A DNA stretch of 64,000 nucleotides from NCBI RefSeq assembly GCF_019056515.1, contig NZ_CP064873.1, positions 1,860,001 through 1,924,000 of the forward strand. Direction: 5' to 3'. Positions 18,142 to 34,719 of this stretch are shown here, in pieces (positions within the stretch are counted from its first letter, which is position 1; every line of letters begins with the position of its first letter). Under the pieces are notes generated by a model, which worked only from the letters and a program-made list of their open reading frames with translations, ran no database searches and was not told where the DNA came from. The DNA comes from Microbacterium paraoxydans (lineage in GTDB: Bacteria > Actinomycetota > Actinomycetes > Actinomycetales > Microbacteriaceae). The position numbers and the translations under genes were made by a program.

Positions 18142-18174
18142 CGGCCGCGTGCTCGCGTGAACGACGCGCTCAGC

Positions 18175-18189: not shown

Positions 18190-18281
18190 CTGGGCGCGTC
18201 GGTCGTCGCGGGCGTTTTGCAACGCTCCGTACGGTCATCTCACAGGCTCTGGAGGGGGCCTTCCATACCGAGGAGAGACAC

Positions 18282-19405: not shown

Positions 19406-19420
19406 CTTGAAGGTGGTCGG

Positions 19421-19687: not shown

Positions 19688-19698
19688 TGTGCTTCCTT

Positions 19699-20678: not shown

Positions 20679-21474
20679 CGGGGGCCTCCAGTGCGTCGAG
20701 GCGCTGCGCGAGGAGGTCGACCGCCTGGTGGAGCTGCGCGTTCTGAGCGATGAGGAGCGCGATGAAGTCGATGCTGTCGGGCACCAGTTCGCCGTCGTGC
20801 TCGGCGTAGACGACGAACGGCTGCAGGTCGTCGGACTCGGCGAGGCGTTCGGCGATCCATCCGTACTTCCATGAGCCGTCCCCGGTGCGCATCTGGAAGC
20901 GGTGCAGGTCGGGGAAGATGTCGCCGAGGCTGGCGGGGTCTATCGCGCTGATGTACTTCTTGTACCGTTCCGACGACGCACCGCGCGAGAGCCGGCCGTC
21001 GCCGTTGATGTACGCGACGGCGTAGCTGACGGTGGCGGGGGCCGCGGCGGGCACGATGAGATGAGCGCCGTCGAGTCCGAGGTTGCCGGTCATGGTGTCG
21101 CCGGTCTTCTTGACGAGACCGGACGTGTCGATTCCGACGCCCGCGACGGCCTGATCGACGTACAGCTTCGGTGCGTACTCGCCATTGGTGGACGGCATCG
21201 GGCCGGTGAGTGACCCGTTCGACCAGCGCCGGGCGACGGCGCCGCCTGTGGGGCTGGTCTCGGCGTCCAGGGTCGCGGCGCTACCGAGCCCGAGGTTGGA
21301 TCGCACCTGCGCGGTCGTGGGTGCGGTGGTGCCCTTGACGCCGGCCCACACGCGGTTGAAGAACCGGGCGATGTAGTCGCGGGTCGTGTTGTCCTCGTCG
21401 TCGAGCGTGTTCGCGAGCGCTGCGCCGTTCACGAGCGCCATGCCCGCGGCGAGAGCGTCGTCTCCGGTAGCCAT
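20668..21474 (-). CDS. Tail fibre/spike protein with S74 intramolecular chaperone domain
   Basis: A 268-residue protein that ends in a peptidase S74-like auto-processing chaperone. Ser167/Ser168 and Lys172/Lys173 in Ser-Ser-Glu-Arg-Tyr-Lys-Lys-Tyr-Ile sit five apart, as in the Ser-Lys cleavage dyad. The typical Tyr-Gly-Trp-Ile-Ala-Glu-Arg-Leu and a terminal coiled coil (Gln-Asn-Ala-Gln-Leu) follow. The N-terminal half is Gly/Thr-rich with fibre-like repeats (Lys-Thr-Gly-Asp-Thr-Met-Thr-Gly-Asn-Leu). It probably trimerises and is cut after folding. It overlaps the endolysin start by 11 bases. Confidence 0.8.
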   Translation of the reverse strand: MATGDDALAAGMALVNGAALANTLDDEDNTTRDYIARFFNRVWAGVKGTTAPTTAQVRSNLGLGSAATLDAETSPTGGAVARRWSNGSLTGPMPSTNGEYAPKLYVDQAVAGVGIDTSGLVKKTGDTMTGNLGLDGAHLIVPAAAPATVSYAVAYINGDGRLSRGASSERYKKYISAIDPASLGDIFPDLHRFQMRTGDGSWKYGWIAERLAESDDLQPFVVYAEHDGELVPDSIDFIALLIAQNAQLHQAVDLLAQRLDALEAPDER

Positions 21475-21486
21475 GTGCTTCCTCCC

Positions 21487-23187
21487 TTACAGGTCGTTGA
21501 TGGTGCCCGTCAGGGCGTTGATGGTGCCGGCGAGCAGGTCGATGCTCCCGGCCGGGACGAGAGTGGTTCGCGACTGGATGGTGAGGGTGTCGTCGCCGAG
21601 GTTGAATGTGACCGCGCCGATGGTGCCCTTGAGGGTGGAACCGTCCTCGCGGGCGATGCTGAGCAGCTGCTCCGCCCGTTCGGTCCACAGCGGGATACCG
21701 GCGACCGTCGTCACCCGGCCGCGGTCCTGCGCCCGCCGCACCATGGCTTCCGCCCGCCCGGGTCCAGGCCACGGGTCGGTCAGCTCGACAGAGGCGACCT
21801 TGCGGGGCGTCGGAGTGAGGGCGAAGGTGTCGCGGCGGACCCGGTAGATGCCGTCGCGCCCCGTCCACCGGTACGTATAGACCGCGGCGTCGAACCATCC
21901 ATCGTCCGTGTCGATGCTGATCTCGTCCTCAAGGCGCGTGAGGTTGACACCCCACCGCCACGCCGACGAGCCCGCGGCCTGATACTTGGCATCGCGGAGT
22001 GTCCAACCACGCTCTTCGTCGCACACGAGGCGGAGGCCGTTGGCCTTAAGGAGCGGGGCGAGGAAGTCGAGCACGGACTGTCCCGGTTGCCACACTAGGG
22101 CGTCCGGGTCGCGCTCGATGGTCGGTTCGCGGTGCGAAGTGGACAGGTTCGCGTCGCCGGTCCAGGTGTAGGCATAGATCGCGTCATTGATGGTGTACCC
22201 GTCGAAGTACGGCGCGAGCTCGTCCGACTGGACAAGCTGCCAGCATGTCGCCTCTACCGTCGATCCGGCTGCGAGCGGACCGGCCACGCGCATGATGAGC
22301 CGCGCCTGTGTCGCGCCGCTGGGAGCCTTGACGTTTTCGAGGGTGAGCCACGCCCATGGCGAGGAACCGGCCCCGGGGTCGCTCATGGTGACCGTTGGGC
22401 CGGCCACTTCGCCGAGCGGGTTGCCGTCCTTGTCCAGCCAGAAAATGCGAGCCCACGCCGAGCGGACGGCGGCGCCGCCGCCAGCGATGGAGAACCGGCC
22501 GGCGACGCGGAAGCTGTAGACCTCGCCAGGGCGGACGCTGGCGGTCTTGCGCCACTCCGCCCACGTCGATGCGACCGCGGTCAGGGTGGCGGTCGCGCAG
22601 GTGGTCGTACCGGTGCCGAGCACGCTGCTGATCCCGGTCGTGTTCGCCAGGGTGGCCGTAGCGCCACCGAACGCTACCGATGTCGTGGTTGTCGATCTCG
22701 GGTCTATCGCGAGGTTGTCGAGCGCCCACTGTGCGGTCACGTTCGCGTCGGTGGTTCCCGCGGCGAGGGATGCCCCGATCTTCCCGAGCACGTAGTTGCA
22801 CACCGCGCGCAGTGACGCCTCATGAGCGCGAGGAGCGCGGTCCTGAGTCAGGGGCGCGTAGTCCGCTGCGAGGGCCTCATCGCTCGCGAGGGTGACCGTC
22901 GCGGTGCCCGTCGCATGGTCGGGCACGACCCGCCGTACAGCGAGGTTGAAGACCCGAGGGGCGTCGTCGTCGCGCCGCGCTTCGATCACCACGCGCCGGC
23001 CGGCGCGCGGGTCGATCCGGTCGAGGAGTGCCGCGTCGGCGGTGATGGTGATCGTCGCCTGGACGTGTGGGATGCGCGAGGCGTCGAGAGACACATCACC
23101 GGGGTTGTCGAGGTCGAGCGCGAGCGGCACGTCGCCTGCAGGGTCCAGCAGCCGCGCGGCGTAGGTGTGAGTGGAGGCGACGGTCAC
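21487..23187 (-). CDS. Minor tail protein (baseplate-like)
   Basis: A 566-residue protein, Thr/Val/Asp-rich and beta-sheet-like, with many Trp residues. An N-terminal part resembles the antigen-type tail-tip proteins of siphoviruses. A central carbohydrate-binding-module-like section (about 240-350, Gly-Ser-Thr-Val-Glu-Ala-Thr-Cys-Trp-Gln-Leu) suggests host-surface contact. The family is not firmly identified; placement between the distal-tail-like and fibre genes supports the call. GTG 23187 overlaps the previous stop (GTGA), overruling the Arg-rich upstream extension. Confidence 0.7.
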   Translation of the reverse strand: MTVASTHTYAARLLDPAGDVPLALDLDNPGDVSLDASRIPHVQATITITADAALLDRIDPRAGRRVVIEARRDDDAPRVFNLAVRRVVPDHATGTATVTLASDEALAADYAPLTQDRAPRAHEASLRAVCNYVLGKIGASLAAGTTDANVTAQWALDNLAIDPRSTTTTSVAFGGATATLANTTGISSVLGTGTTTCATATLTAVASTWAEWRKTASVRPGEVYSFRVAGRFSIAGGGAAVRSAWARIFWLDKDGNPLGEVAGPTVTMSDPGAGSSPWAWLTLENVKAPSGATQARLIMRVAGPLAAGSTVEATCWQLVQSDELAPYFDGYTINDAIYAYTWTGDANLSTSHREPTIERDPDALVWQPGQSVLDFLAPLLKANGLRLVCDEERGWTLRDAKYQAAGSSAWRWGVNLTRLEDEISIDTDDGWFDAAVYTYRWTGRDGIYRVRRDTFALTPTPRKVASVELTDPWPGPGRAEAMVRRAQDRGRVTTVAGIPLWTERAEQLLSIAREDGSTLKGTIGAVTFNLGDDTLTIQSRTTLVPAGSIDLLAGTINALTGTINDL

Positions 23188-23552
23188 GGGAGCACCTCGC
23201 GGAAGGGAACGTCGAGCAGCCACACCTTGCGCGTCTCGTCGTCGAGGCGTGGCGTCAGTTCGCCCGGACCGACGACGAACGCCATGCCGACCTCCGGCAG
23301 GTCGGGGTCGTCGTATGTGAACACTTCTCCGCGCACCAGGACGGCGGCGGCCGCCCACGCTGCCGCCCGATCCGCGAACACGAGCGGCAGGGTGCCTGCA
23401 CGCATGCCGGCGGGGCGGAAGGTTACGTCGGGGTCGGGGCGTCCGAGGATGTCGTGGACGAGCGTCCGCGTGGGGATGCTCGCCGAATACCCGTCCTGGA
23501 TCGTCGGGGTGATGACGCCGTTCGCGTGTGTGATCGTGGTCACTTGTCCCAC
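23184..23552 (-). CDS. Small minor tail protein downstream of tape measure
   Basis: A 122-residue protein starting Met-Gly-Gln-Val-Thr-Thr-Ile-Thr, beta-rich, with Phe-Thr-Tyr-Asp-Asp-Pro-Asp in the middle. Its position directly after the tape measure is that of the distal tail protein in siphoviruses, although it is shorter than usual. It overlaps the tape measure stop by 13 bases and the next gene by 4. Confidence 0.65.
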   Translation of the reverse strand: MGQVTTITHANGVITPTIQDGYSASIPTRTLVHDILGRPDPDVTFRPAGMRAGTLPLVFADRAAAWAAAAVLVRGEVFTYDDPDLPEVGMAFVVGPGELTPRLDDETRKVWLLDVPFREVLP

Positions 23553-24820
23553 CCCATATGGTTCGCGAACCCGGCGTTGAGGCGCGCTGTAACGGTCATG
23601 GTGCGAGGTCGCGTGAGGGCGTCGAGGTCGACGCGCACCTTGTCGAGCCCCGTCACCTGCGCATTGAAGGTGGTGGTGTGGGAGTCGGGCACGGCGTTGA
23701 TGTCACCCTCCACACGCTTGATGTCTTCGGTGGCTCGCTGGGTCGCGGCGTTGATAGCGACTTCTGTCTCGTCAGGGAGCCGGTAGATCGCATTTCCGAC
23801 CTCATCGACTTCACCCGTGGCAACGCCCGCCGTGGTCGCGAACTCGTAAAGCGCGCGCTCGTTGAGCCGTACGGCGTCGGAACCGCTGAGGTATCCCTCC
23901 TCGGTAGCCTTGAGCACGGCCTCCAGTTCCCGCACGCGACCGGACGTGACGGAGGTCGTCATGCCGTTGCTTGCGAAAGCCTCGGTCAGCCGGTCGAGCT
24001 TGTCCCCACCGGACGCCAGAGCGTCGATGACGTCCACCCGATCCCATTCCGAGACGTTCGCGAGGTCCAATACCTGCTTGTACTTCTCGGTCTCGCTCGT
24101 CCAGGCGGCGATGCGCTCCGTGTACCCGGCTGCCGAGAGAGCGCCCGCAACGTCGTACGCGAGACCGAACGCGGACTCGCGAGCCTCGTCCGCGGCCTCC
24201 TGCACTTCGTTGAAGTGATTGACCATGACGCCCGCCGCTGCTGCGACGGCGAGGCCCGCGGCCGCGCCAGCAGGACCGAAGTCGGCGAAGGCGTTGGCAG
24301 CGACTTCTTGGCCCAGCTCGGCGATGGACTCGAAGGAACCGTCGAAGCTCGCCGCCGTCTCGCGAGCGGACTGCATCGCCTCATCTTTGAGGCCCTTGAC
24401 GCCTTCCTCGGCCTTCTGGAAGCCGCGGGCGCTGGAGTCGCCGATGTCGTCGAATGCGTCCTCAGAGCGACGCTGCACGTCCCGGAGCGAGTCTTCGATC
24501 CCGTCGAGAGCACGCTCGCCGTCGCGGCCCGCGTCCTTGAGTCCGTCGCCGACACCCTCGACCGCGCGTTCCGCCTGCCGCGCGGAAAGGCCCATGCCGC
24601 GCAGAGCGTCCTTGATGTCGTCGTCGGACTTGCCCGCCTTGCGAGACGCCTCCACGAGCTTGGACGCGAACGAATCGACGGGCCCGCCCGCGCGCGAGGA
24701 CTCGGCGCCCACGCCGTCGACCGCGGCCTCCAGGTCGGAGAGGGCCTTCTGGCCGTCCTTCGCGCCCTTCGCGACGCCGGATGCGTTGAGGCCGATGTCG
24801 ATTTCGAATCGCTTGCTCAT
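23540..24820 (-). CDS. Tape measure protein (short)
   Basis: A 426-residue, strongly helical protein rich in Ala, Glu, Asp and Lys, with a long heptad-rich first half. A hydrophobic Gly/Ala-rich segment follows at about 175-205 (Phe-Gly-Pro-Ala-Gly-Ala-Ala-Ala-Gly-Leu), typical of tape measure proteins. Tape measure length sets tail length; at about 0.15 nm per residue this suggests a tail near 60-65 nm, short for a siphovirus. ATG 24820 opens with Met-Ser-Lys-Arg-Phe-Glu-Ile-Asp-Ile-Gly-Leu, typical of these proteins, and overlaps the preceding stop. Confidence 0.82.
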   Translation of the reverse strand: MSKRFEIDIGLNASGVAKGAKDGQKALSDLEAAVDGVGAESSRAGGPVDSFASKLVEASRKAGKSDDDIKDALRGMGLSARQAERAVEGVGDGLKDAGRDGERALDGIEDSLRDVQRRSEDAFDDIGDSSARGFQKAEEGVKGLKDEAMQSARETAASFDGSFESIAELGQEVAANAFADFGPAGAAAGLAVAAAAGVMVNHFNEVQEAADEARESAFGLAYDVAGALSAAGYTERIAAWTSETEKYKQVLDLANVSEWDRVDVIDALASGGDKLDRLTEAFASNGMTTSVTSGRVRELEAVLKATEEGYLSGSDAVRLNERALYEFATTAGVATGEVDEVGNAIYRLPDETEVAINAATQRATEDIKRVEGDINAVPDSHTTTFNAQVTGLDKVRVDLDALTRPRTMTVTARLNAGFANHMGWDK

Positions 24821-25287
24821 GCTCCTGTGGCTTTCTCGATGGTTTCGGCGACCGTCCGGTAGGCGGTCTGTGCGTAGAGGGACCAGGCCCGCGGGATGAA
24901 CTCGCGGAGCGCTGGATAGACGACTCGGCCGGCCTTGGCGTAGTGCCAGAACTGGCGTTGCGTTCGTCGGGTAACCGAGCCGCGGCGGGTCTGATAGGTC
25001 GCGTAGTCCTCGCGGTACGCGCCGAACTCGGTCTCGCGGGGGAACTTGCCATTCGCCCCGGCGATGAGCTTCGCGCCACGGTCGGAGACGTAAACGGTGG
25101 ACGGGCCCACGAGGCGCTTGTGGAAGATCGCCTCGCCAGGAGCTTTCTCGGCCAGGACCTTCCGCCACTCCGGGACGATGACCGCCTTCGTCTGCGCGCG
25201 GGCTTCCCTCGCGACCTCACGCGGGATGGTGGCCATGACCTGCACGAGCGCGGTCAGCGTGGGGCTGCGCCGCACGTCGAGCTGCAT
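24817..25287 (-). CDS. Phage tail-region protein between major tail and tape measure
   Basis: A 156-residue basic protein with an N-terminal helix (Leu-Thr-Ala-Leu-Val-Gln-Val-Met), then Tyr/Arg-rich segments such as Arg-Glu-Asp-Tyr-Ala-Thr-Tyr-Gln-Thr-Arg-Arg. No family is firmly recognised. It occupies the slot where siphoviruses carry tail assembly chaperones, but it resembles HK97 gp10-like completion proteins at least as well. Its stop overlaps the tape measure start by 4 bases. ATG 25287 is used because upstream residues are Cys/Ser/Arg-rich shadow. Confidence 0.6.
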   Translation of the reverse strand: MQLDVRRSPTLTALVQVMATIPREVAREARAQTKAVIVPEWRKVLAEKAPGEAIFHKRLVGPSTVYVSDRGAKLIAGANGKFPRETEFGAYREDYATYQTRRGSVTRRTQRQFWHYAKAGRVVYPALREFIPRAWSLYAQTAYRTVAETIEKATGA

Positions 25288-25300
25288 GGCCACCACCCGC

Positions 25301-25720
25301 TTACGCGCCGGAGCCCACGGGCACCGGGCGCGGACGACCCTGCACGCCGTGGGACACCGAGGATGTAGCCACGGTGTTGACCTGCCCACCGATGGAGCCG
25401 GGCGCGATGAACACGTCGACCTCCCACCCGAGGCCGCCGCGCTTCGGCTCGAACAGGAGAGTGACCATCTCACCCTCGTGCTCGAACAGGAACATCGAGA
25501 GCGAGTCCGGCGTCTCCCAGTCCTGCGCGTAATCGAGCTGCGTCGCCCACACCGTCGAGGTCGGGAAATTGTAGGTCGCGTCCGGGCTGAGTCCGTTGAA
25601 GGTCACCGTGCCCGTCGTCGGGGTGATGGTCACACCCGAGATCGCCTTCTCGAAGTCGAAGGTCGCGGCACGGACGAGACAGTCGCGGAGGACGATGGGC
25701 TTGGCATCGATCTGAGGCAT
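25301..25720 (-). CDS. Major tail (tube) protein
   Basis: A 139-residue beta-rich protein, the usual size for siphovirus tube proteins. It opens Met-Pro-Gln-Ile-Asp-Ala-Lys-Pro-Ile-Val-Leu-Arg-Asp-Cys, has Phe-Glu-His-Glu-Gly-Glu in the middle, and a Gly/Ser/Pro-rich end. Gene order (connector, terminator, tube, then tape measure) supports the call more than any single motif. Confidence 0.75.
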   Translation of the reverse strand: MPQIDAKPIVLRDCLVRAATFDFEKAISGVTITPTTGTVTFNGLSPDATYNFPTSTVWATQLDYAQDWETPDSLSMFLFEHEGEMVTLLFEPKRGGLGWEVDVFIAPGSIGGQVNTVATSSVSHGVQGRPRPVPVGSGA

Positions 25721-25726
25721 GGTTAT

Positions 25727-26149
25727 CTACTCCTGTGTGAGGTCGGCGGGCGCCGGCGGGTCGGTGGTCGGGTTCGTGGTGGAGATGGTGATGCTGAGCC
25801 GCCACCCGAAGTAGGCGTCCCAGAACACCGACTTGGTGGCGCTGATGCGGTAGACCGCGGGAGCCGTATAGACGGCCTCGAACAGTTCGGCGACCGACTC
25901 GTCGGCGTCCGCCTCTCCCTTGCGCACGTCGGTCTTGTTCGTGACGATGCACACGTCGACCGTCGCCGCGATCTTCGCGAGCGGTGCCTCGGGGAGCGGC
26001 TCGAACGCGGTGTACTCCAGCCACATGAGCGGGCCCGCGAGCGAATGCATGGACGACGGGATTCCGCCCTCGATCTTCCAGTCCTCGGGCACCCGAGGCG
26101 CAAGCAGGCCGAGGACGTACTCGCGGACAGTGGGAGTCTCATCGGACAC
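25727..26149 (-). CDS. Putative tail terminator/head-tail joining protein
   Basis: A 140-residue alpha/beta protein starting Met-Ser-Asp-Glu-Thr-Pro-Thr-Val-Arg-Glu-Tyr-Val-Leu-Gly-Leu-Leu (GTG 26149), with Val-Asp-Val-Cys-Ile-Val-Thr and a late Trp-Arg-Leu-Ser-Ile-Thr-Ile strand. This resembles minor capsid/tail terminator proteins that fix one dimension of the tail end. The GTG start is chosen because it gives an 11-base overlap with the upstream connector gene; the longer frame is antisense-like and Arg/Ser-rich. Confidence 0.65.
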   Translation of the reverse strand: MSDETPTVREYVLGLLAPRVPEDWKIEGGIPSSMHSLAGPLMWLEYTAFEPLPEAPLAKIAATVDVCIVTNKTDVRKGEADADESVAELFEAVYTAPAVYRISATKSVFWDAYFGWRLSITISTTNPTTDPPAPADLTQE

Positions 26150-26561
26150 GAGGGCCTCCCTGCACCGGGCGGATGATCTGCTTGATGGTCTTGTCGAGCG
26201 GCCTCGGCGTGAACGTGAACTGCTCCATTCCCGCGTCGCCGCCGCCGGACACGCGCCCGGCGTTCCAGAGGTTCGTGGCCTGCTGGAGCTGCGCGTACAC
26301 GAAGTTGATCGGCGGGTCGGTCGGGTCGACGCCGAGCAGCGCGAGAACGTCTCCGAGGCGCTCGGCGAGGCCGAACCGGACGAGTGCCAGCTCGACCGCG
26401 CCAGTAAGCGTGGCGGTCTCGGGAGCGTAGGCGAGGACCTGGATGCGGGCGGTCTCCAGGAGGAATCCGCACACTTCGAGGTTCTCGATGGGGGCATCCG
26501 GCCACGCGGCGATGAGACGCTGTTGTGCCTCGTCGCTCGTGGCGGTGTACCACTCAGCCAT
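26139..26561 (-). CDS. Head-tail connector protein
   Basis: A 140-residue, mainly helical protein. It starts Met-Ala-Glu-Trp-Tyr-Thr, has Ala-Pro-Glu-Thr-Ala-Thr-Leu-Thr-Gly-Ala-Val-Glu-Leu-Ala-Leu-Val in the middle, and ends in a basic tail. This is typical of adaptor proteins (HK97 gp6-like) that sit under the portal and read directly after the capsid gene. ATG 26561 lies 19 bases after the capsid stop. Confidence 0.75.
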   Translation of the reverse strand: MAEWYTATSDEAQQRLIAAWPDAPIENLEVCGFLLETARIQVLAYAPETATLTGAVELALVRFGLAERLGDVLALLGVDPTDPPINFVYAQLQQATNLWNAGRVSGGGDAGMEQFTFTPRPLDKTIKQIIRPVQGGPRVR

Positions 26562-26580
26562 GCCTACGCTCCCGTTCGGC

Positions 26581-28302
26581 TCAGGCGTCAGCGACGCCGA
26601 TGTGGACGACCGCCTCCGGGCGGACGATGAGACGCTGCAGGTAGCCGTGGATCGCCTTGTCGATGCCACCGCGGGCGAGGTCAATCGCGTCGATGTGGAG
26701 CGGGCCATTGGAGAGCTCGTCGAAGTCGACGGCGTTCTTGGTGCCGACGATGACGGACGGGGTGTCCTCGATGCCGGTGTCGCCGACCACGATGCGCAGA
26801 CCGTCCGCGGTGATGCCCTCGTCGGTGTTGGCTCCGAAGTTCACGAACTCGGGCACGAGGTCCTTCGGCGTGTAGAGGATCTCCTCGTACGCCGCCTCGT
26901 TGGCAATGGCGAAGGTCGGCACGTCGCGGCGCCCGTCGGCCTTCTTACGCCGCACCGCCAGCACGCCCTGGATGAGCTGGCCCATCGCTCCGGCGTAGTC
27001 GTGGCCGTCGACGCCGGGGTAGACCTGCGGGGCGATGGGCGCGCCCGCGACCTGGACCCAGGTGTCGAGTGCGATCTCGTCGGACCAGACGAGGTGGTCC
27101 TCGACGATGAGGCGGAGGAACGCCTCGACGACCTCCGCTCCACCGGGCAGGTCGAAGAACTCGCGGGCGATGTCGACGCCGAACGCGAACCGGAACAGCT
27201 CCGACGCGGCCGACTCGGTGAACCCCGTCCCGGACTTGATGGGCTGCTTGTTGCCCGCCCAGGTGCCGTCGAAGTGCTCGACTCGCGCACCCGCGGTGCC
27301 CCGCTCCAGGGTGTAGCCCTTCTTGCCGGCGGCGGTGATGTTCGTGCCGAGGTTGCCAAGGGTGATGTACTGCCGCTCGTACGGGATGCCCTGGTAGAGC
27401 GGGCCGAGCCAGTTCGGCTGGAGCACTTCGCCACCAGCGGGCAGGGAGCCCGCGCCGCTGATGGTGATGTCCGAGAGAGCGGCGAGGACCGCGGCGGCTT
27501 CGGCGGGCGCTTCGCCGCCGAGCTTGAAGGCGTCCTTCGCTGCCGCGAAGGCGGCGAACACGGGCTGGAGGTTCGCCGGCCGCGGCGTCGTGGTGGCGGC
27601 CGGGGCACCGTTGCGGTGCGTGGCGGGGATAGCGGTTGCGGACACTTCGTTCTCCTGTTCGGTTTCGACCTCGGCATCCGCTTCGGTCTGTTCCTCGGTG
27701 ATGGTGGTGGTGATGGTGGTCTCGGTGCCGTTCTCGGTGGCCTCCTCCGTGGTCACGGAGTCGTACACACGGCGGTAGGTGCGACCGTCCTCGTCGGTGT
27801 AGATGACCTCGGAATGGTCTTCGGCGACGGTGGCCTCCTCGCCGGTCTCCAGCTCGACGGTCTCGTCGTCGATCTCGGCGTCCGCCGCGAGGACCTGAGC
27901 GGACGGGAACGCACCGCGTGCGACCTTGGCGGCGGCGGCGAGCACACCGCCCGTGGCGCGGCCGTTCTTGATGCCAGTCTTGAACTCGGCAGACAGGCAC
28001 CGCCGGGTGGTGTCGGCGAGGGCGGCGTCCCCGGCGGCAGTGCGGCCGATTGCGAACGTGGCCATGATGCCGACGGTGGTCTCCCATAGGCGCGTCGCGC
28101 GTCCGATGGGACGGAAGCGGTCGTGGTCCTCGTTGATGGACACGACCGAGGGGTCCTCGGGGATCGCGATGTCGCCCGCCATGACCGTGAATCGGCCGAC
28201 GTTGGTGCGGCCCTCCTCGCCGTAGGGCAGGAGCAGGCCGGTCAGGGTGCGCTCGTCGAGGTTGGCGAGGACCTCGCCACCTTCGATCTGGATGTCGGGC
28301 AT
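26581..28302 (-). CDS. Prohead protease-major capsid protein fusion
   Basis: A 573-residue two-domain protein. Residues 1-135 form a prohead maturation protease of the HK97/U35 type: His60 in Ile-Asn-Glu-Asp-His-Asp and Ser104 in Cys-Leu-Ser-Ala-Glu-Phe-Lys fit the catalytic pair. Residues about 140-235 are an acidic Glu/Thr-rich linker, probably acting as scaffold and being removed. Residues about 250-573 are the HK97-fold capsid, with Leu-Val-Trp-Ser-Asp-Glu-Ile-Ala and a C-terminal Ile-Arg-Val-type strand. Separate genes are the usual arrangement; fusion makes protease and shell equimolar unless internal starts exist. No frameshift is needed. Confidence 0.88.
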   Translation of the reverse strand: MPDIQIEGGEVLANLDERTLTGLLLPYGEEGRTNVGRFTVMAGDIAIPEDPSVVSINEDHDRFRPIGRATRLWETTVGIMATFAIGRTAAGDAALADTTRRCLSAEFKTGIKNGRATGGVLAAAAKVARGAFPSAQVLAADAEIDDETVELETGEEATVAEDHSEVIYTDEDGRTYRRVYDSVTTEEATENGTETTITTTITEEQTEADAEVETEQENEVSATAIPATHRNGAPAATTTPRPANLQPVFAAFAAAKDAFKLGGEAPAEAAAVLAALSDITISGAGSLPAGGEVLQPNWLGPLYQGIPYERQYITLGNLGTNITAAGKKGYTLERGTAGARVEHFDGTWAGNKQPIKSGTGFTESAASELFRFAFGVDIAREFFDLPGGAEVVEAFLRLIVEDHLVWSDEIALDTWVQVAGAPIAPQVYPGVDGHDYAGAMGQLIQGVLAVRRKKADGRRDVPTFAIANEAAYEEILYTPKDLVPEFVNFGANTDEGITADGLRIVVGDTGIEDTPSVIVGTKNAVDFDELSNGPLHIDAIDLARGGIDKAIHGYLQRLIVRPEAVVHIGVADA

Positions 28303-28305
28303 GGG

Positions 28306-29412
28306 TCAGTCCTCACTCGTGGGGTTCGTGTTCGGGGCGGGGATCGCGTTCTGCGCTGTCAGGTCGCCGCGGATGGACAGGCCCTCGTCGCACACGTCGT
28401 CGAGCGACATCCGCGCCTCGAAGGCGAGCATCATGCCGCGAGCGAGACCGAAGTCCCACAGGTCGGAGCGGGCCCCGCCGTTCGCGACGCCCTGGTAGCG
28501 CATCTCGGTGCCGCCTCCGCCGCCTCCCTGGCGGACGGCCTCCAGGATCGAGGCGGGTAGGGCGGTGTGATTCGCGATGTCGAGGCGGGCGGCGTTGCGC
28601 CCCGTCTCGTACAGGTCGACCTGCACCTGACCGGGCATCCCGACCTTCACGTAGGACGGGTGCACGGCGGTCGCATGCTTGGTACGGTTCCGGATCCACT
28701 GGTCGAGGAACTCATCGATCTCGGGGTCGTCCCACTGGTCGTACACCGAGCCGTCGACTTCGAGGGTCGTCAGCGGGATCGGGTTCTCCAGGCGCTGCTG
28801 GTAGACGGCCTCGACGTTGCGGGCCTGCCGGATGGTGTCCGCTCCATCGACCAGCAGACCGTTCTCTCCGTAGCCGAGGGGAATGGCGATGATCTTGGCG
28901 GTGTACTCGGTGGGCACGCGCTCGTCGGTGATCTCGATGATGCCGTGCTCGTTGATCTTCCACAGGCCGAACGGGATGTGCAGGCAGTCGGTCATGTCCT
29001 CGGTGAAGCCGAACGCGGCCCACCCGTTGAAGAACCAGTCCGACGCGGCGCCGTACATGCGGTGGTACGGGGCGACGCCGGACTGCGAGTTCGTCAGCCA
29101 CTCGGGCTGGTCGTCGGTGCGGGCGTCGTTGTCCATCTGGAAGAACGGGATGGACGCGAGCTGCCGGCAGATGATGCCGTGCGCGCGCTTCACGCCCGGG
29201 AGGCGGAGCGCGATCTCGCGGGTGAGCGGGAGGACGGTACGGTCGAGGAGCCCGCCGAGCGCGTCGTCAACCGCCCAGGTAACGATGTTGTCCTGCGGCG
29301 ACCACGGCGAGACGATCGACACCGGAGGCTTCGCGGGAGGCGTGAGCAGCTCGGTCGCCGCGCGCTTGGCGTAGACCTGCTCGATGTTCCGTCCGAAGAT
29401 TGAGAATCCCAC
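28306..29412 (-). CDS. Portal protein
   Basis: A 368-residue protein forming the dodecameric DNA channel at one capsid vertex. Visible are the N-terminal wing helices, then Pro-Gly-Val-Lys-Arg-Ala-His-Gly-Ile-Ile-Cys-Arg-Gln-Leu-Ala-Ser-Ile-Pro-Phe, typical of the portal stem entry. A Gly-rich insert (Arg-Gln-Gly-Gly-Gly-Gly-Gly-Gly-Thr) follows at about 300, as in many portals. The chosen start GTG 29412 opens Met-Gly-Phe-Ser-Ile-Phe-Gly; no good ribosome site is seen there, so the start is uncertain. Its stop is 3 bases from the capsid start. Confidence 0.85.
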   Translation of the reverse strand: MGFSIFGRNIEQVYAKRAATELLTPPAKPPVSIVSPWSPQDNIVTWAVDDALGGLLDRTVLPLTREIALRLPGVKRAHGIICRQLASIPFFQMDNDARTDDQPEWLTNSQSGVAPYHRMYGAASDWFFNGWAAFGFTEDMTDCLHIPFGLWKINEHGIIEITDERVPTEYTAKIIAIPLGYGENGLLVDGADTIRQARNVEAVYQQRLENPIPLTTLEVDGSVYDQWDDPEIDEFLDQWIRNRTKHATAVHPSYVKVGMPGQVQVDLYETGRNAARLDIANHTALPASILEAVRQGGGGGGTEMRYQGVANGGARSDLWDFGLARGMMLAFEARMSLDDVCDEGLSIRGDLTAQNAIPAPNTNPTSED

Positions 29413-29449
29413 GTGATGAACGATCAGGCGGGTATCCCACAGCGGAAAA

Positions 29450-29644
29450 TCAGACGGCGTGTCGGAGCTTGCGACGGAGCTCCGACAGTGCGTCCTGCGC
29501 CTGCGTGTCCCCGGGGTGTGCGCGCTTCTCGTGAGCCGCGGCGCGCTCCCATGCTTCGAGCTTCGAGAACGCGAACGCATGCCAGACACCGCATGTCTCG
29601 CAGACGATCACGATGCTGATCTGCGTGCAGTCGAGACGAATCAT
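29450..29644 (-). CDS. Small phage protein with Cys-x-x-Cys
   Basis: A 64-residue protein whose ATG overlaps the terminase stop (ATGA). The N-terminal half has Cys-Glu-Thr-Cys-Gly-Val-Trp-His, which could bind zinc, and the second half is a charged helix with Glu-Lys-Arg-Ala-His-Pro-Gly-Asp. It lies between terminase and portal. No function is known; a packaging accessory is possible. Confidence 0.7.
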   Translation of the reverse strand: MIRLDCTQISIVIVCETCGVWHAFAFSKLEAWERAAAHEKRAHPGDTQAQDALSELRRKLRHAV

Positions 29645-31269
29645 CGGGTGCCTCCGAATCGGAACATGTCGCGCGGGCTCTTGGTATGGGGCACCTCGTC
29701 GAGGAACCGGAGCGCGAGCGCCGCCGCCTCGATGGGCGAGGTGTCCAGCTCCGGGTCGGAGTCCGGCGGGCCGAACCGGAACGTGCCGTAGTTGCCGAAC
29801 TTCTGCCGCTTCACCGCCCGCGCCGCGCGCTCCAGAGCGGGGTGGTAGTAGATCACGAGGTCGTCGTCCTCGAGAGCTTTGAGCATCCCCACCGTGGACT
29901 TCGGGATGTCGGCCTGCCGAGTGCCCTCCATCACCGGCCGAGGGCTCGCCTTCGCCAGCGCCCCGGCCACCTGCTCGGTGTAGCCGAAGGCGTCGTACCA
30001 GAGCTTCGCGCCCGTGCGGCGCAGGCGGAGCAACACCTCACGCTCCAGGTTCGTCGTGCCCTGCTGGTGCCACCACAGCGCGACCGCGCGCTTCCGCCGC
30101 GGCTCCTCCTCGCCCGCGATCTCCAGCGCCTCCGTCACCAGGTCACCCGGCTCGTGGTAGTCCCATGCGATAGCGAGCGACCCGCCCAGGCCGAGGTGGT
30201 GGACCTTCAGCGCGGCGGCGTACCGCTCGGGGAGCGCCTCGGGGAACGGGAGCTTGCGGAGCGCGCGGTCAAGCTGCGCCGGTGGGATCGCGACGTCGGC
30301 CGCGCCCTCGGTCCCGAACTGGCCTCCGTACTCGATGAGGAAGTCGTCGAGGGGCCAGCGGTCGAACGACCGGCGCACTGCCTCGACTGGCGTGGTGAAT
30401 CCGACGCCGGGGTGGTGGAGCTCGATGAACTCCCGCATCCGGCCGCCCGTCGCTCCCGTCTTCGGGTGCGGCTGGTCCGGCTCCCACGACCCGAGCTGTG
30501 CACGGTCGACGGTCTCCGGGATGCCGTGCCACGCGACCGCGGCGTCCTCATCGTGCAGCGCCTCCCACAGCAGGTTCCCGGTCCGCCACTTCTGCCCGGT
30601 CCCGGCGAGCACGAACTGGGCGCCGATCTTCGTGTCCATCGTCGGGATGACCGCGCGCGTCACGTCCTCGCCCTGCTCGATGTCGGCCTCCGCCGCCTCG
30701 TCGCCGAACGCCATGTCGAAGCCGCCCGACCGGAATCCCTCACCGTTCGGCGTGTACACGTTCAGGTACGAGCCGGTCGCCGTGAAGTGCAGGTGCTCGG
30801 TGCCCTTGCCGACATTGATCTGGACCGGGCTGTCGCGCCGCGACGGGTATAGCCGGTCGAGGTGCGACACGATGTCCTTCCGGAACCGCTCCCCCGCCTT
30901 CGCCCCGGTCGTGAACATCGTCCACCCCACCTGGTAGTCCTCGCGGTGCCAGCACCGACCGAGCATGACCGCCTGCACCCCCGTCGTCTTCGTGGACCGG
31001 CGCGGCTCGAAGATCGCGTTCATGAAGCGGCCGGCGGCGAGGAGGTCCGCCACCATGAGCTGCATCGGCGACGGCCCCTTCCCGCCGTCGCCCGCGCGCT
31101 GCCGCTCGTCCAGGCGGAGGAGCCGCGCCCCCGTGATGAACTCCCCGCGCGACTGCTCCGTCGTCACGAGGTCGTCGAGCCGGATCGCGCCGAGGTGCTC
31201 AATCTTCGACCGCCACTCCAGCCAGTTCGCTTCGGACCGCAGGTCGGCCAGCGTCGGCGTCGCGCTCAC
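29641..31269 (-). CDS. terL: Terminase large subunit
   Basis: Packaging ATPase-nuclease, 542 residues. The N-terminal ATPase has Phe-Glu-Pro-Arg-Arg-Ser-Thr-Lys-Thr-Thr at 87-96 as a phage-type Walker A, and Gly-Phe-Asp-Met-Ala-Phe-Gly-Asp-Glu-Ala at 183-192 as Walker B. The C-terminal nuclease shows acidic residues in Ala-Ile-Ala-Trp-Asp-Tyr-His-Glu-Pro-Gly. GTG 31269 overlaps the preceding stop (GTGA), preferred to ATG 31284. No small subunit is recognisable nearby; an HNH protein lies upstream instead. Confidence 0.9.
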   Translation of the reverse strand: MSATPTLADLRSEANWLEWRSKIEHLGAIRLDDLVTTEQSRGEFITGARLLRLDERQRAGDGGKGPSPMQLMVADLLAAGRFMNAIFEPRRSTKTTGVQAVMLGRCWHREDYQVGWTMFTTGAKAGERFRKDIVSHLDRLYPSRRDSPVQINVGKGTEHLHFTATGSYLNVYTPNGEGFRSGGFDMAFGDEAAEADIEQGEDVTRAVIPTMDTKIGAQFVLAGTGQKWRTGNLLWEALHDEDAAVAWHGIPETVDRAQLGSWEPDQPHPKTGATGGRMREFIELHHPGVGFTTPVEAVRRSFDRWPLDDFLIEYGGQFGTEGAADVAIPPAQLDRALRKLPFPEALPERYAAALKVHHLGLGGSLAIAWDYHEPGDLVTEALEIAGEEEPRRKRAVALWWHQQGTTNLEREVLLRLRRTGAKLWYDAFGYTEQVAGALAKASPRPVMEGTRQADIPKSTVGMLKALEDDDLVIYYHPALERAARAVKRQKFGNYGTFRFGPPDSDPELDTSPIEAAALALRFLDEVPHTKSPRDMFRFGGTR

Positions 31270-31442
31270 CGCTCCTCCACCCATTCTGCCTTGATCCGCC
31301 AGCCACTCCCGTCACGCTGCCAGTCCCATGACTCGACGGTGACGAACGCCTCACCGGGGAGCAGCGCGAGCGCGGCGAGGAGCTGCTCGGCGCGGGGCGT
31401 CCCGTCGAACGGTCCGACCTCGGTGGACATCTGAATCTTCAT
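31266..31442 (-). CDS. Small phage protein upstream of terminase
   Basis: A 58-residue protein starting Met-Lys-Ile-Gln-Met-Ser-Thr-Glu with a mixed alpha/beta pattern and two Trp residues near the end. Good spacing from GGAG to ATG 31442 and a 4-base overlap with terL support it. It is too small to be a usual small terminase. Function is unknown. Confidence 0.65.
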   Translation of the reverse strand: MKIQMSTEVGPFDGTPRAEQLLAALALLPGEAFVTVESWDWQRDGSGWRIKAEWVEER

Positions 31443-31521
31443 CGTTTTCTCCAGTTCAGGGGGGGATTTTGCTCTTGGAGCCGAAGGCGGGGGTTGCACG
31501 GCGACCCAAAAAAAGACGCGG

Positions 31522-31839
31522 TCACCATGGCGCGAGCCCTTCGCGCGTCGTCGCCCGGCGTGGTGGCGGCTGAGGTCGAGAGACGCGACCGTTCGTGATC
31601 GCGGCGCCACGACGTCCACCCTCTGACCGGTTGCTGCTCACGGTCTCGGGCGCGAGGTTCGAGATCGCGTGTCCGCCTTCCGGGTCGAGGTGCCCCACGT
31701 CGAAGGGCCGACCTGGCGTGAGGAGCTTGCCGGTCCGCCAGCAGTACACGTCCTGCCCATGGCGCCAGGCGGCGCGCACCTGGGCGCGCACGATGCGGGC
31801 GTTCGCGAGGTACTCGGGGTCGCGGTGCTTGCTGGTCAT
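31522..31839 (-). CDS. HNH endonuclease
   Basis: A 105-residue protein with Cys-Trp-Arg-Thr-Gly, Phe-Asp-Val-Gly-His-Leu-Asp-Pro-Glu-Gly-Gly-His and Asn-Leu-Ala-Pro-Glu, followed by Asn-Arg-Ser, the HNH His-Asn pattern. Phage HNH proteins next to terminase can be needed for cos cleavage and packaging, which suits this phage with no visible small terminase and points to cohesive ends (inference). ATG 31839 lies 11 bases from the iteron-like array. Confidence 0.8.
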   Translation of the reverse strand: MTSKHRDPEYLANARIVRAQVRAAWRHGQDVYCWRTGKLLTPGRPFDVGHLDPEGGHAISNLAPETVSSNRSEGGRRGAAITNGRVSRPQPPPRRATTREGLAPW

Positions 31840-31850
31840 GTGGTCCTCCC

Positions 31851-32097
31851 GGTCCAGGTGGTCCAGGCAGTTCGCCTATCTCTTCTTCTTCTCTCTTATG
31901 TGTGATGGGTTGGAGAGAGGGTGGACCGCCTGGACCAACCCGCTCCCCCACCGGCATCGCGCCTGGACCAGTGCCTGGACCGCGCCTGGACCCGGGGCTG
32001 GACCACCCGCATTCCATCGGCCGAAGGTCTCTCGATGAGGGGCGCGGGGAGCGGGCGCGGGTGGACCGCCCCGCTGCCTGGACCGCCTGCCTGGACC
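31851..32097. repeat. TGGACC array, candidate origin or operator cluster
   Basis: In the 261-bp gap between the HNH and helicase genes, TGGACC occurs nine times on the plus strand (31922, 31931, 31964, 31976, 31987, 31999, 32062, 32079, 32092) and twice inverted (GGTCCA at 31851 and 31860). Most copies are CCTGGACC with 9-13 bp spacing. The inverted pair and the first direct pair both have 9-bp spacing and flank a pyrimidine-rich, lower-GC stretch (31870-31912). No gene is convincing here. It may be a replication origin (iterons) or a multi-site repressor region. Confidence 0.75.
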
Positions 32098-32100
32098 GCA

Positions 32101-33396
32101 TCAGTCGACCGTCGAAAGGGTCACGGCGATGCCCTCGTAATGCCAGGTGCGCGAGGAGCCGACGCGGGGGCGGGTGCGGGTGATGCCCATCTGCTTGAGT
32201 CGGAGCCCGAAGGGGCCCGACGCGAGCGGTGAGTAGCCGTTGCGGCGGCACCACCCGGAGTACTTGCGGTACACGTCGGCGGTGGGGCTCATGTGCTCGG
32301 GGCCGAGGAACACGGCCTCGTCCTCGTCGAGCCACAGCATGAGCGGGTCGGCGGCGTCGTGGAGACGGGTGGTGGCTTCCTGAGCGGCCTGGGGCGGTGC
32401 GAACTTGCCCCGCTGCATGAGGCGGCGAAGTCCCTCCATTGCGTAGCGGAAGATGCCGGGGGCGTCGTCGAAGAGGAGTTGCTCGTCGAAGGGGCCGGAG
32501 CCGTCGACTTTCTGCACGAAGTCAATGACCTCCCAGCGTCGGCGCCAGCCGATGGAGTTGTCGGAGGTGCGGAAGAACTCGTTCGACGCGAAGATCGGGA
32601 CCGCGTAGGGCACGAACTCGAAGGAGTGGCCGAACTTGCGGGATGCGCTGATAGAGTCGCCGCCGGTGATCTCCTTGAGGATTTGGGGGTCGGACAGGAA
32701 CCGACTGGAGAGGTCGCCGCTGATGTTCGCGGTCTTGCCGTACAGGCCTGAGGTGGCGAAGCGGTCGTCGACGAGCTGGTGCATGCTGATGCTGGAGTAG
32801 TTCGCGCGCCCGAGGAGGTAGCGGATGACTCGGAGCATGGTGCCCTTGCCGTTGCCGCCCTCGCCGTAGAGCAGGAAGATCTTCTGCAGCGGGTTGCCGG
32901 TCATGAGCAGGTACCCGAGGACCTCCCACATGTGTCGGTGGAGCTCCGGGTCTTCGCCGAGCACCTGCTGGAGCCATTCGAGGAAGGTGTGTGGGATCGC
33001 GATGGGGTCGTACGCGATCGGAAGCTTGGTCAGCGCGCCGAGCATTTCGTTGTGCTCGGTGAGCCGGTCCTCTTGCCACCAGTAAATGCCGTTCTCCAGC
33101 ACGATGTAGTCGAGGTAGCCGCGCGGGAGGTCGGGGAGGCCGACCTCGGGAAGATCGATGTTCAGGAGGTGCGCTTGGACCTGCCCGAGGACCGTGGTGG
33201 AGAACTTCGCGCCGAGGGCCTTTGCGACGCGCTTGGTGACGACGTTCTCATCGCGGACGTAGACGCCCTCGCGGTACTCGTATAGGTCGCCTTCGACACC
33301 GCGGCCGAGCCGCGTGGGCTCAGCCGCGATGTAGTCAGCGAGGAGGGTGGCGTCAAACTTGCCCGTTTCGGCGTCCAGGAACGATGGGGCGCTCAT
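32101..33396 (-). CDS. D5/P4-type phage helicase (SF3-like)
   Basis: A 431-residue replication protein. The D5-type N-terminal region (about 15-165) is followed by an SF3-like ATPase: Walker A Gly-Glu-Gly-Gly-Asn-Gly-Lys-Gly-Thr at 178-186, an Ile-Ser-Gly-Asp-Leu segment, and the sensor Phe-Ala-Ser-Asn-Glu-Phe-Phe with Arg-Arg-Arg-Trp. The C-terminus is a winged helix (Tyr-Arg-Lys-Tyr-Ser-Gly-Trp-Cys). No primase (AEP or Toprim) domain is visible, so priming may rely on the host. It is the only replication gene in the prophage and lies next to the repeat array. Confidence 0.85.
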   Translation of the reverse strand: MSAPSFLDAETGKFDATLLADYIAAEPTRLGRGVEGDLYEYREGVYVRDENVVTKRVAKALGAKFSTTVLGQVQAHLLNIDLPEVGLPDLPRGYLDYIVLENGIYWWQEDRLTEHNEMLGALTKLPIAYDPIAIPHTFLEWLQQVLGEDPELHRHMWEVLGYLLMTGNPLQKIFLLYGEGGNGKGTMLRVIRYLLGRANYSSISMHQLVDDRFATSGLYGKTANISGDLSSRFLSDPQILKEITGGDSISASRKFGHSFEFVPYAVPIFASNEFFRTSDNSIGWRRRWEVIDFVQKVDGSGPFDEQLLFDDAPGIFRYAMEGLRRLMQRGKFAPPQAAQEATTRLHDAADPLMLWLDEDEAVFLGPEHMSPTADVYRKYSGWCRRNGYSPLASGPFGLRLKQMGITRTRPRVGSSRTWHYEGIAVTLSTVD

Positions 33397-33532
33397 CCGT
33401 CACCTCCTCGGCGATCCTCACGAGGCAGCGCGCGCACCGGATGCCGGCGACGACGACCATGCGTCCGCCTCGGACTTCGACCACGCCAACGGGCTCGGGC
33501 GAGTGAAGCCCGAACAGGCATCCGAGGCTCAC
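33353..33532 (-). CDS. Tiny zinc-ribbon-like phage protein
   Basis: A 59-residue protein from GTG 33532, whose start overlaps the preceding tiny gene's stop (GTGA). It has Cys5, His10, Cys33 and Cys36 (Gly-Cys-Leu-Phe-Gly-Leu-His and Arg-Cys-Ala-Arg-Cys), a plausible zinc site. Its tail overlaps the helicase start by 44 bases in another frame. Function is unknown; such ribbons are common in early phage regions. Confidence 0.65.
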   Translation of the reverse strand: MSLGCLFGLHSPEPVGVVEVRGGRMVVVAGIRCARCLVRIAEEVTDERPIVPGRRNGQV

Positions 33533-33633
33533 TGGTCGCCTCGGGCTTCGGAGTGGTCATGGACCCAGCAGCCGAGGCGATAGGCGAGGTATGCCCCGGC
33601 GATGATGAGCAGGTAGGTGCCGTTCACGATCAC
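33529..33633 (-). CDS. 34-residue phage membrane peptide
   Basis: GTG 33633 overlaps the upstream stop (GTGA) and the frame ends in TGA overlapping the next GTG. The product begins Met-Ile-Val-Asn-Gly-Thr-Tyr-Leu-Leu-Ile-Ile-Ala-Gly-Ala-Tyr-Leu, a single membrane helix, then Trp-Val-His-Asp-His-Ser-Glu. The two flanking 4-base overlaps make it more credible than its size suggests. Confidence 0.6.
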   Translation of the reverse strand: MIVNGTYLLIIAGAYLAYRLGCWVHDHSEARGDQ

Positions 33634-33887
33634 GACTCGTCCTCCGCTTCGTCGGAGAGGCGAAGGGCGAGCTGCCCGAGGAGCATACGAGCGTCCTGGA
33701 GCTGCACCTGGACAGCCTCGTGGTCAATGCCGCGGGTGTTCGGCTTCTCGGGCAGGTAGCCGAGATAGAACTCGACCTTGCGGATGTTCTCCAGGCATGC
33801 GCGCAGGTCACCCCACATCGACACGATGCGGTGTGTCGGGCGGAGCTTTATGATGCTCTCCGCTGCCGCTTCCACGTCGCGGGTCAC
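33630..33887 (-). CDS. Helical early phage protein
   Basis: An 85-residue, mostly helical, acidic protein with Leu-Arg-Ala-Cys-Leu-Glu-Asn-Ile-Arg-Lys-Val-Glu-Phe-Tyr-Leu in the middle and an acidic end (Asp-Glu-Ala-Glu-Asp-Glu-Ser). GTG 33887 overlaps the upstream stop (GTGA), matching its neighbours, and is preferred to ATG 33920. No family is recognised. Confidence 0.65.
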   Translation of the reverse strand: MTRDVEAAAESIIKLRPTHRIVSMWGDLRACLENIRKVEFYLGYLPEKPNTRGIDHEAVQVQLQDARMLLGQLALRLSDEAEDES

Positions 33888-34111
33888 TTCGTCGTCCTCA
33901 CGCCGTCCGGCCATAGCCATGCTCCGTTCTCGTCGAGCCCTTGGCTCGCGCGGTGGTAGAACTCCGCGAGTTCCTCGGGTGTGTAGTTCGCTTTCGCGTA
34001 CCAGTGGTCGCGGTCGACCGTGACCGCGTGCAGCTCGTCGAGCAGGCGCTCCCGCTCGCCGATGAGCCAGAGGTACGCCTCGTGCGATACGTGCGGTCGC
34101 TCATGCGGCAT
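33884..34111 (-). CDS. Small early phage protein
   Basis: A 75-residue protein with Tyr-Leu-Trp-Leu-Ile-Gly-Glu-Arg-Glu-Arg-Leu-Leu-Asp-Glu-Leu as a charged helix, then His-Trp-Tyr-Ala-Lys and Asn-Gly-Ala-Trp-Leu-Trp-Pro near the end. It overlaps the HTH gene by 11 bases. A competing frame from 34104 is Ser/Arg/Thr-rich and rejected. Function is unknown. Confidence 0.65.
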   Translation of the reverse strand: MPHERPHVSHEAYLWLIGERERLLDELHAVTVDRDHWYAKANYTPEELAEFYHRASQGLDENGAWLWPDGVRTTK

Positions 34112-34304
34112 CCCAGGGCCCCTGTGCGAGTCGCGCCTCGATGGACGCTTCCAGGTACCGGCGGTGGCTACCCTCGCCGCCCGGGCGGATCGCGACGATG
34201 ACGCCCTTGTCAGCGAGGCGGGAGAGGGTGCGGGGATCGACGCCGAGAGCAGCCGCCGCGACGCCGGGAGTGACCCATCTGTCCTGAGTAGGCTGATTCG
34301 TCAT
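34101..34304 (-). CDS. HTH protein, Cro- or excisionase-like
   Basis: A 67-residue DNA-binding protein with a MerR/excisionase-type winged helix: Trp-Val-Thr-Pro-Gly-Val-Ala-Ala-Ala-Ala-Leu-Gly-Val-Asp-Pro-Arg-Thr-Leu-Ser-Arg-Leu, then a wing with Gly-Ser-His-Arg-Arg-Tyr. It is the first leftward gene, divergent from the repressor, which is the place of Cro, but the fold is that of excisionases such as Xis/AlpA. It may do both: favour excision and the lytic state. ATG 34304 is used; an upstream Met would lie in the promoter. Confidence 0.8.
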   Translation of the reverse strand: MTNQPTQDRWVTPGVAAAALGVDPRTLSRLADKGVIVAIRPGGEGSHRRYLEASIEARLAQGPWDAA

Positions 34305-34393
34305 ACCGGCGAGAGTACAGGACAAAACGGACTAATCAAGCACTTCGGTCAATTCACTTGTCGAAGTGTCCGAAATGTCCATATGATGTCGAT
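34305..34393. promoter_or_regulatory. Divergent phage control region with promoters and operators
   Basis: Rightward promoter: TTGTCG at 34359-34364 and TATGAT at 34382-34387 with a 17-bp spacer, 6 bp before the repressor ATG, so a leaderless mRNA is likely. Leftward: weaker TTGATT and TACTCT (16 bp), also close to its ATG. Operator candidates are CACTT-GTCG-AAGTG (34355-34368, overlapping the rightward -35), CACTTCG at 34341, and GGACA/TGTCC half-sites at 34319, 34367 and 34376. Confidence 0.7.
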
Positions 34394-34687
34394 ATGGAGA
34401 CACAGCAGCAGAATCGAGTCCAGGCCGTCAAGCGTCAGATGGACGCCGAGGTCGGCCGCCGCGTCCACATGCTCATGTGGGACCAGCAGCTCACGCAGAC
34501 CGCCTTCGGCGCGCGGGTCGGTATCGACCAGAGCGCACTGGCCAAGAAGCTGCGCGGCCAGCGCGGCTGGAGCCTCGACGAGGTGGCCACCGTTGCCGCC
34601 GAGCTGGGCGTGAGCGTGTCCTACCTGTTCGGTGAGGGTGAGGGTGTGGGCCCTGCCGGGATCGAACCGACGACATCCACGGTGTAA
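34394..34687 (+). CDS. Immunity repressor ending in attR (prophage form)
   Basis: A 97-residue XRE-type repressor. The helix-turn-helix at about 33-76 includes Leu-Thr-Gln-Thr-Ala-Phe-Gly-Ala-Arg-Val-Gly-Ile-Asp-Gln-Ser-Ala-Leu and Leu-Asp-Glu-Val-Ala-Thr-Val-Ala. Residues 85-97 are encoded exactly by the 39-bp attachment core, and TAA at 34685-34687 belongs to the host tRNA-Val gene read antisense. In the excised attP form the frame would continue from 17918 for 18 residues (ending Phe-Ala-Gly-Arg-Glu-Ala-Ser) to TGA at 17972-17974, giving 115 residues. ATG 34394 is chosen for its position right after the -10 box. No dimerisation or peptidase domain is present. Confidence 0.85.
   Translation: METQQQNRVQAVKRQMDAEVGRRVHMLMWDQQLTQTAFGARVGIDQSALAKKLRGQRGWSLDEVATVAAELGVSVSYLFGEGEGVGPAGIEPTTSTV
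34646..34684. other. attR core within tRNA-Val
   Basis: The right copy of the 39-bp core, identical to 17879-17917. It forms the 3' part of the reconstituted tRNA-Val gene and also the last 13 codons of the repressor on the opposite strand. Confidence 0.95.
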
Positions 34688-34719
34688 ACGTGGCGCTCTA
34701 CCAGCTGAGCTAAAGGCCC
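34647..34719 (-). tRNA. tRNA-Val (anticodon TAC)
   Basis: A 73-nt cloverleaf on the minus strand: acceptor GGGCCTT pairs with AGGGCCC (one T-G), D-arm GCTCAGCTGGTAGAGC, anticodon stem CCACG/CGTGG with loop TTTACAC giving anticodon TAC, T-arm GTCGG/CCGGC with loop TTCGATC, discriminator A. CCA is not encoded. Its 3' half lies in the prophage attR and is phage-supplied but identical in sequence, so the tRNA stays functional. Confidence 0.97.

Follow-up and report, generated by a model that had tools for sequence, protein, structure and literature searches.

The window, by which we mean the whole stretch of 64,000 nucleotides from Microbacterium paraoxydans analysed here, contains a prophage of 16,806 bp including both of its cores (17879–34684), the features of which are listed in Table 1. 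The common core is a 39-bp sequence with the same bases at both ends, and the match breaks off directly beyond it on each side. The right-hand copy restores the 3′ half of a host tRNA-Val(TAC) gene, within which attB is located; a search of the host's own genome with this tRNA returns a single full-length match, the others being the 39-base copy at attL and a weak match of 28 bases. When the ends are joined, the tyrosine integrase gene is downstream of the repressor gene and in the same direction, separated from it by a 56-amino acid gene that matches nothing in PHROG or Pfam within the thresholds applied.

Table 1. Features of the prophage and of its attachment site, with positions in the window.
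Feature	Position	Strand	Basis
attL common core	17879–17917	+	identical to attR core
18-residue tail ESPRLAPIVNLFAGREAS and TGA, in frame with core	17918–17974	+	join of 34684 to 17918; similar tails in relatives
56-amino acid gene, GTG start overlapping tail stop	17971–18141	+	similar frame after the tail in a viral contig (locus L050)
Tyrosine integrase, 292 amino acids, C-terminus -GRGAAKIAA (ssrA-like)	18282–19160	+	family match
Lytic block	19421–33396	mostly −	family match
Holin-like (lytic block)	19421–19774		family match
Tape measure (lytic block)	23540–25168		family match
Major tail protein (lytic block)	25301–25720		family match
Major head protein (lytic block)	26581–28302		family match
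Terminase large subunit (lytic block)	29641–31284		family match
Primase/helicase-like (lytic block)	32101–33396		family match
Divergent small HTH_17 protein, cro/excisionase position	34101–34325	−	family match
Candidate operator half GGACAAAACGGAC, at start of divergent gene	34320–34332	+	inverted pair
Candidate inverted partner GGACATTTCGGAC	34368–34380	−	inverted pair
Repressor gene, prophage (97-amino acid) form, HTH	34394–34687	+	BetR/HTH_3 match
attR common core, repressor codons 85–97 (VGPAGIEPTTSTV)	34646–34684	+	reading frame
Host tRNA-Val(TAC); anticodon loop gives TAA stop at 34685–34687	34646–34719	−	ARAGORN

The repressor reading frame opens with an ATG at 34394, and the segment from there to 34684 comprises 97 codons, the core contributing codons 85–97. 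This correspondence had been proposed in an earlier sequence-only reading of the window and holds base for base; 13 of the 97 repressor codons are the antisense of a tRNA. The same reading had assigned the stop codon to host tRNA-Val sequence, and the ARAGORN prediction bears this out, with TAA corresponding to tRNA positions 35, 34 and 33, antisense to U33-U34-A35 of the anticodon loop, and starting at the first host base past the core. In the predicted excised form, in which 34684 is joined to 17918, the protein gains 18 residues (ESPRLAPIVNLFAGREAS) for a total of 115 rather than 97, and ends in EAS; its TGA stop (17972–17974) overlaps the GTG (17971–17973) that opens the 56-amino acid frame, as had been noted earlier with coordinates that proved right. 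EAS is not a classic ssrA ending, and the manner in which the long form would be inactivated was rightly called open.

Directly past the attL core is an inverted repeat, ACGATTGG-CA-CCAATCGT (17926–17943), which is not exactly kept in the related tails that were aligned. A second stretch, at 18157–18213 before the integrase gene, reads NDALSESPRFLGASVV in one frame, contains the inverted repeat GAATCGCCGCGATTC at 18175–18189, and is nearly unchanged behind the tail in two other loci (L050 and L151); it is possibly a regulatory site or a site used by the integrase.

The small protein encoded divergently from the repressor also matches an excisionase/regulator PHROG. The sequence GGACANNNCGGAC has only two exact matches in the prophage, forming an inverted pair between the repressor and the divergent gene that is a reasonable candidate for an operator; in a close relative (L037) the pair is present in changed form. 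The order of repressor and integrase together with a divergent small HTH gene is also found in the Gordonia phages Dogfish and Emperor.

Repressor tails recur as protein-coding ends in relatives

The placement of the attP core within the repressor reading frame is common to the window prophage and to its relatives. In two genomes of sister species (G100 and G016) both halves are present at the same tRNA in the same arrangement, with cores 17.1 and 16.8 kb apart and the tails ESQRLAPITDIFTARAS and ESPRLAPVTDIFTLRDAS, respectively. G100 shares both host flanks with the window (77% and 93% identity), and its repressor head differs, being 32% identical to that of the window. Six of the 11 fetched regions (G100, G016, G198, G153, G284 and G162) contain a core repeat with an in-frame tail, and these were not found in the five others (G042, G278, G011, G194 and G181); the attL of G011 and that of G194 are on separate contigs, and that of G181 falls outside of the fetched stretch. 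The tails of G284 and G162, which end in YGLAA and AVDA, are both without the tail motif described below. Of the 14 genomes that have a Val attL, 11 also contain the exact core with TAA directly behind it (a stop that the search pattern itself specified), and the repressor frame preceding it is open for 83–137 codons in ten of these 11 and for 41 codons in G335. Among ten heads scanned against Pfam, five pass the curated cut-off of an HTH-type model (BetR, HTH_3 or CI), another three are only weakly similar to HTH models, and the last two have no match; further heads occur in the same frame before the core in viral contigs. An empty site with both host flanks was not found among 20 loci from 28 genomes (the host's own included) extending 1.5 kb beyond the match, and G071 has an intact tRNA and right flank without this prophage.

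Several of these loci have features of their own. Two Val cores are about 5.0 kb apart in L108 (G198), with a different head and the tail ESPRLIRPIINLFGERAS, which points either to a remnant or to a mobile element of very small size. In L109 (G153) the same type of repressor is located at a tRNA-Asn(GTT), with the in-frame attL tail FKSAEVIHVDFTRPAARA, and L111 (G278) contains two tandem repressor homologues about 290 bp apart.

Because any reading frame ends somewhere, the join by itself proves little, and we therefore compared the sequences that follow the core in other elements. The attL/attP search pattern, in which VAR replaces the host TAA behind the final 27 bases of the core, matches 14 of 366 genomes of the genus (including that of the window) and, among 398 genomes sampled from the whole family, that of the window alone. 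It is also found in ten stretches from a named collection (by label, seven Microbacterium, two Curtobacterium and one Leucobacter) and in two viral contigs. These 27 matches yield 19 distinct tails, that of the window included, and the DNA behind the core is the same in L138 (G016) and L135 (the Microbacterium sp. CBA3102 chromosome).

All 19 tails close in the repressor frame after 15–33 codons. The last residue is alanine or serine in 18 of them, with the exception ending in EEAI, and the residue before it is alanine, valine or threonine in every case; the terminal pairs are AS (13), VA (3), TA (2) and AI (1), and none is -AA. A motif of the A-P/T/E-I/V/L kind is present in 14 of the 19 and missing in five, and the recurring internal stretch can be written A-P/T/E-I/V-x-x-I/L.

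The other two frames behind the core, read to their own stops, range from four to 417 codons and end in alanine or serine in eight of 19 and five of 18 cases (one frame has no stop before the locus ends). Several of those with such an end are the integrase frame itself, and the longest look like the integrase gene and end in -AA. Neither frame holds the tail motif within its first 33 codons (0 of 19 and 0 of 18). When these frames were limited to 300 bases, five and four of 19 ended in alanine or serine, and full reading raises both counts; the terminal-residue contrast is therefore weaker with full-length frames, and the contrasts in length and motif are clear. Chance read-through was rejected by this comparison, in which the uniform short length, the terminal alanine or serine, and the motif are combined in one frame only.

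As a background, 77 of 295 open reading frames of 250 amino acids or more end in alanine or serine in a mechanical listing from the window and six loci. The binomial probability of the observed tail ends against this background is 4.5 × 10⁻¹⁰, which is overstated as it treats the tails as independent, and they are related to each other and do not represent 19 independent trials. A third-position test for purifying selection on the ten of the 19 tails that align gap-free is not significant (p = 0.10), and the median dN/dS is 0.44 over 43 of the 45 tail pairs; L148 fits the start pattern and was excluded from the third-position test for an inserted codon.

Read-through proteins and apparent exchange at the core

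Two protein searches recovered 63 proteins, 41 of which carry the Val-core peptide. Fifteen of these stop exactly at the core, one of them (P0001) carrying the window's own repressor, and the other 26 extend past it. All but one of the 26 read-through proteins end in alanine or serine, the terminal pairs being AS (8), VA (6), AA (4) and TA (3), with one each of VS, AG, LA, GA and SA. One of them, P0052, is without a repressor head. Elsewhere among the 63 proteins there are peptides that look like different tRNAs read in antisense, in some cases together with a tail motif resembling this one.

The identities of heads and tails are uncorrelated (rho 0.08, p 0.22) over 26 forms, comprising 25 of the 26 read-through proteins and the window's own; P0052 was dropped because it lacks a repressor head. 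Over the same forms the correlation between two parts of the head is 0.79, and the lack of a head–tail correlation could also be caused by the tails being short and fast-evolving. The nine elements for which both halves and the integrase are known (in G194 the halves are on two contigs, and L129 of G011 was dropped for want of an integrase frame) do give a head–tail correlation (rho 0.54, p 0.003), with values of 0.65 between tail and integrase and 0.60 between head and integrase. Individual pairs lend support to exchange, as L141 and L050 have integrases that are 98% identical and heads that are 27% identical, and P0004 and P0053 have identical 22-residue tails with heads that are 46% identical. 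From these comparisons it seems that heads and tails have been exchanged at the core, but not freely.

The integrases have a C-terminal signature of a different kind. The window integrase, for which PF00589 is the only Pfam match at E ≤ 0.1, ends in -AKIAA, which the sequence-only reading did not mention; this is near the -ALAA with which the host tmRNA tag AESKRNDFALAA ends. Of 17 loci, 16 contain a frame identified as integrase-like from its active-site motif rather than by a family search, and 15 of these 16, the window's among them, end in -AA; behind two of the 19 tails (L139 and L148) no such frame was found. These ends fit the proteolytic control of integration described for the mycobacteriophages (PMC9262239).

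A putative integration-dependent immunity switch

We think it probable that this prophage carries an integration-dependent immunity switch of the kind known from mycobacteriophage BPs. In the excised phage the repressor would read through the tRNA-derived core into the 18-residue tail and be inactive or short-lived. The integrase would recombine the core with the 3′ half of the host tRNA-Val, leaving the tail behind at attL while the host anticodon loop provides the TAA; the 97-residue repressor made from attR would then be stable and would repress the divergent lytic promoter, presumably through the candidate operators in Table 1. By this scheme the tail would shorten the life of the repressor, immunity would depend on integration, and the lifetime of the integrase, set by its ssrA-like -IAA, would determine the frequency of integration. 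As for the repressor tails, their natural -AS ends could serve as weak or adaptor-dependent tags, the signal could reside in the internal motif, or the tail could work in some other manner.

It could instead be a coincidence that attP lies at the end of the repressor gene and that the antisense of the tRNA 3′ half is open in its frame, with the tail untranslated or meaningless. The absence of the motif from five of the 19 tails is compatible with this, as are the third-position test and the frame of P0052, which enters the core without a repressor head. However, the tails are uniformly short with a terminal alanine or serine, their motif is confined to one frame, the read-through proteins come from independent collections, and heads of several kinds share this one frame, all of which makes coincidence highly improbable. 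A decayed prophage that keeps the arrangement and no longer switches is somewhat easier to imagine, since six of ten proteins scanned have no PHROG match, but it too is quite unlikely, as the integrase and main structural frames are open and a 95%-identical repressor is encoded in a viral contig of 15.8 kb.

A different possibility is that the split is regulatory and that the tail inactivates the long form non-proteolytically, by blocking oligomerisation or altering contacts, or that it adds an activity, such as activation of the repressor's own promoter. The presence in the tail of a recurring internal stretch in addition to its end would suit such a role. So would the properties of the -AS end: changing LAA to DAS weakens recognition by ClpX and makes degradation SspB-dependent, also in a mycobacterial set-up (PMC4523840 and PMC9382460), and an -AS end alone is thus a poor ClpX signal from which strong degradation would not be expected, a point that counts against the proteolytic reading. 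For BPs, Prep activity seemed to be modestly higher when the long form was stabilised, and mixed tetramers have been discussed; against this, DNA binding is the same for the two BPs forms and proteolysis is what inactivates the long one (PMC4557955), and the end of the tail is constrained at its last two positions in the 19 tails. We regard a non-proteolytic or activating tail as unlikely on balance.

We can offer only tentatively a more elaborate proposal, in which the core would be the joint between two partly exchangeable modules, with any of several repressor heads before it and tail plus integrase behind it, and the tails would form a family of non-AA degrons (A-P/T/E-I/V-x-x-I/L ... A-S) that are weaker than the integrase -AA or read by an adaptor, such that the lifetimes of the two proteins are tuned separately. 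If the core is such a joint, it would explain how immunity type can change with the insertion site kept, and a tail that proved to be a non-ssrA degron would provide a portable degradation tag for actinobacteria. The comparative set of 19 attL/attP tails and 26 read-through proteins bears on the means by which long repressors are inactivated when they have no -AA tag.

Relationships to previously described systems

Integration-dependent immunity is already known in mycobacteriophages, small Gordonia phages, Bifidobacterium prophages and M. abscessus prophages, and the Microbacterium prophage joins them as a probable member, which would extend the phenomenon to this genus; no Microbacterium case appears in the titles or abstracts of the matches listed from the open-licence literature. 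In BPs (representing clusters G, I, N and P) attP is likewise within the repressor frame and the prophage form is shorter, the repressor and tyrosine integrase genes are in one direction, attB is in a tRNA gene, and the host makes the stop codon at the junction (PMC4557955, PMC9262239); the viral long repressor is unstable, and the short form made after integration is stable and represses (PMC4557955). The window differs from BPs in its use of tRNA-Val(TAC), in the loss of 18 rather than 33 residues, in the EAS end of its tail, in its 16.8-kb prophage, and in the 56-amino acid gene between repressor and integrase. In the mycobacteriophage system arm-type integrase sites are described as not needed and a directionality factor as not evident (PMC9262239).

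The BPs-like logic proposed in the sequence-only reading stands in so far as the arrangement is real and is found in relatives, but the distance that it claimed from known systems was too great, given that members with small genomes are in print and that long repressors without ssrA-like tags have been reported in M. abscessus. The Gordonia cluster CW phages Jeanie, McGonagall, GMA5 and GRU3 are small temperate phages with such a system, and in GMA5 the integrase and repressor genes are likewise separated by an additional gene, although this cluster, unlike the window prophage, uses tRNA-Lys (PMC5559632). The Bifidobacterium prophages Bb423phi2 and 689b-1 are similarly small, with the integrase at attL, the repressor at attR, and 18 C-terminal residues present in the viral form only, but they use tRNA-Met and their tails include ssrA-like tags (PMC6109161). 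The long repressors of the M. abscessus prophages MabC, MabH, MabN and MabO have no ssrA-like tag, which is comparable to the predicted EAS end here, and other degradation signals are presumed; their integrases are also described as lacking ssrA tags (PMC8092301), in contrast to the -AA ends found here. A comparable gene order, with an attP that lies outside of the repressor gene, has been described for one Arthrobacter phage (PMC5513430).

Relationships to sequenced phages are sparse. The only near match to the prophage DNA in the phage collection is Microbacterium phage PensacolaC28 (L005), over 4%; among phages its capsid is the closest match too (57% identity), its tyrosine integrase is annotated as two genes, and its HTH genes do not contain the Val-core peptide. 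Arthrobacter phage Arielagos (L006) is a 15-kb phage with no annotated integrase that encodes a homologous repressor (gp18), the end of which has neither the Val-core peptide nor the tail motif. In the 16.6-kb Gordonia phage Emperor the repressor ends in -VAA and the integrase in -TWAA. Finally, in two genomes (G095 and G156) attL (L140 and L142) and attR (L154 and L156) are about 39 and 41 kb apart, and the module therefore seems not to be tied to small phages.
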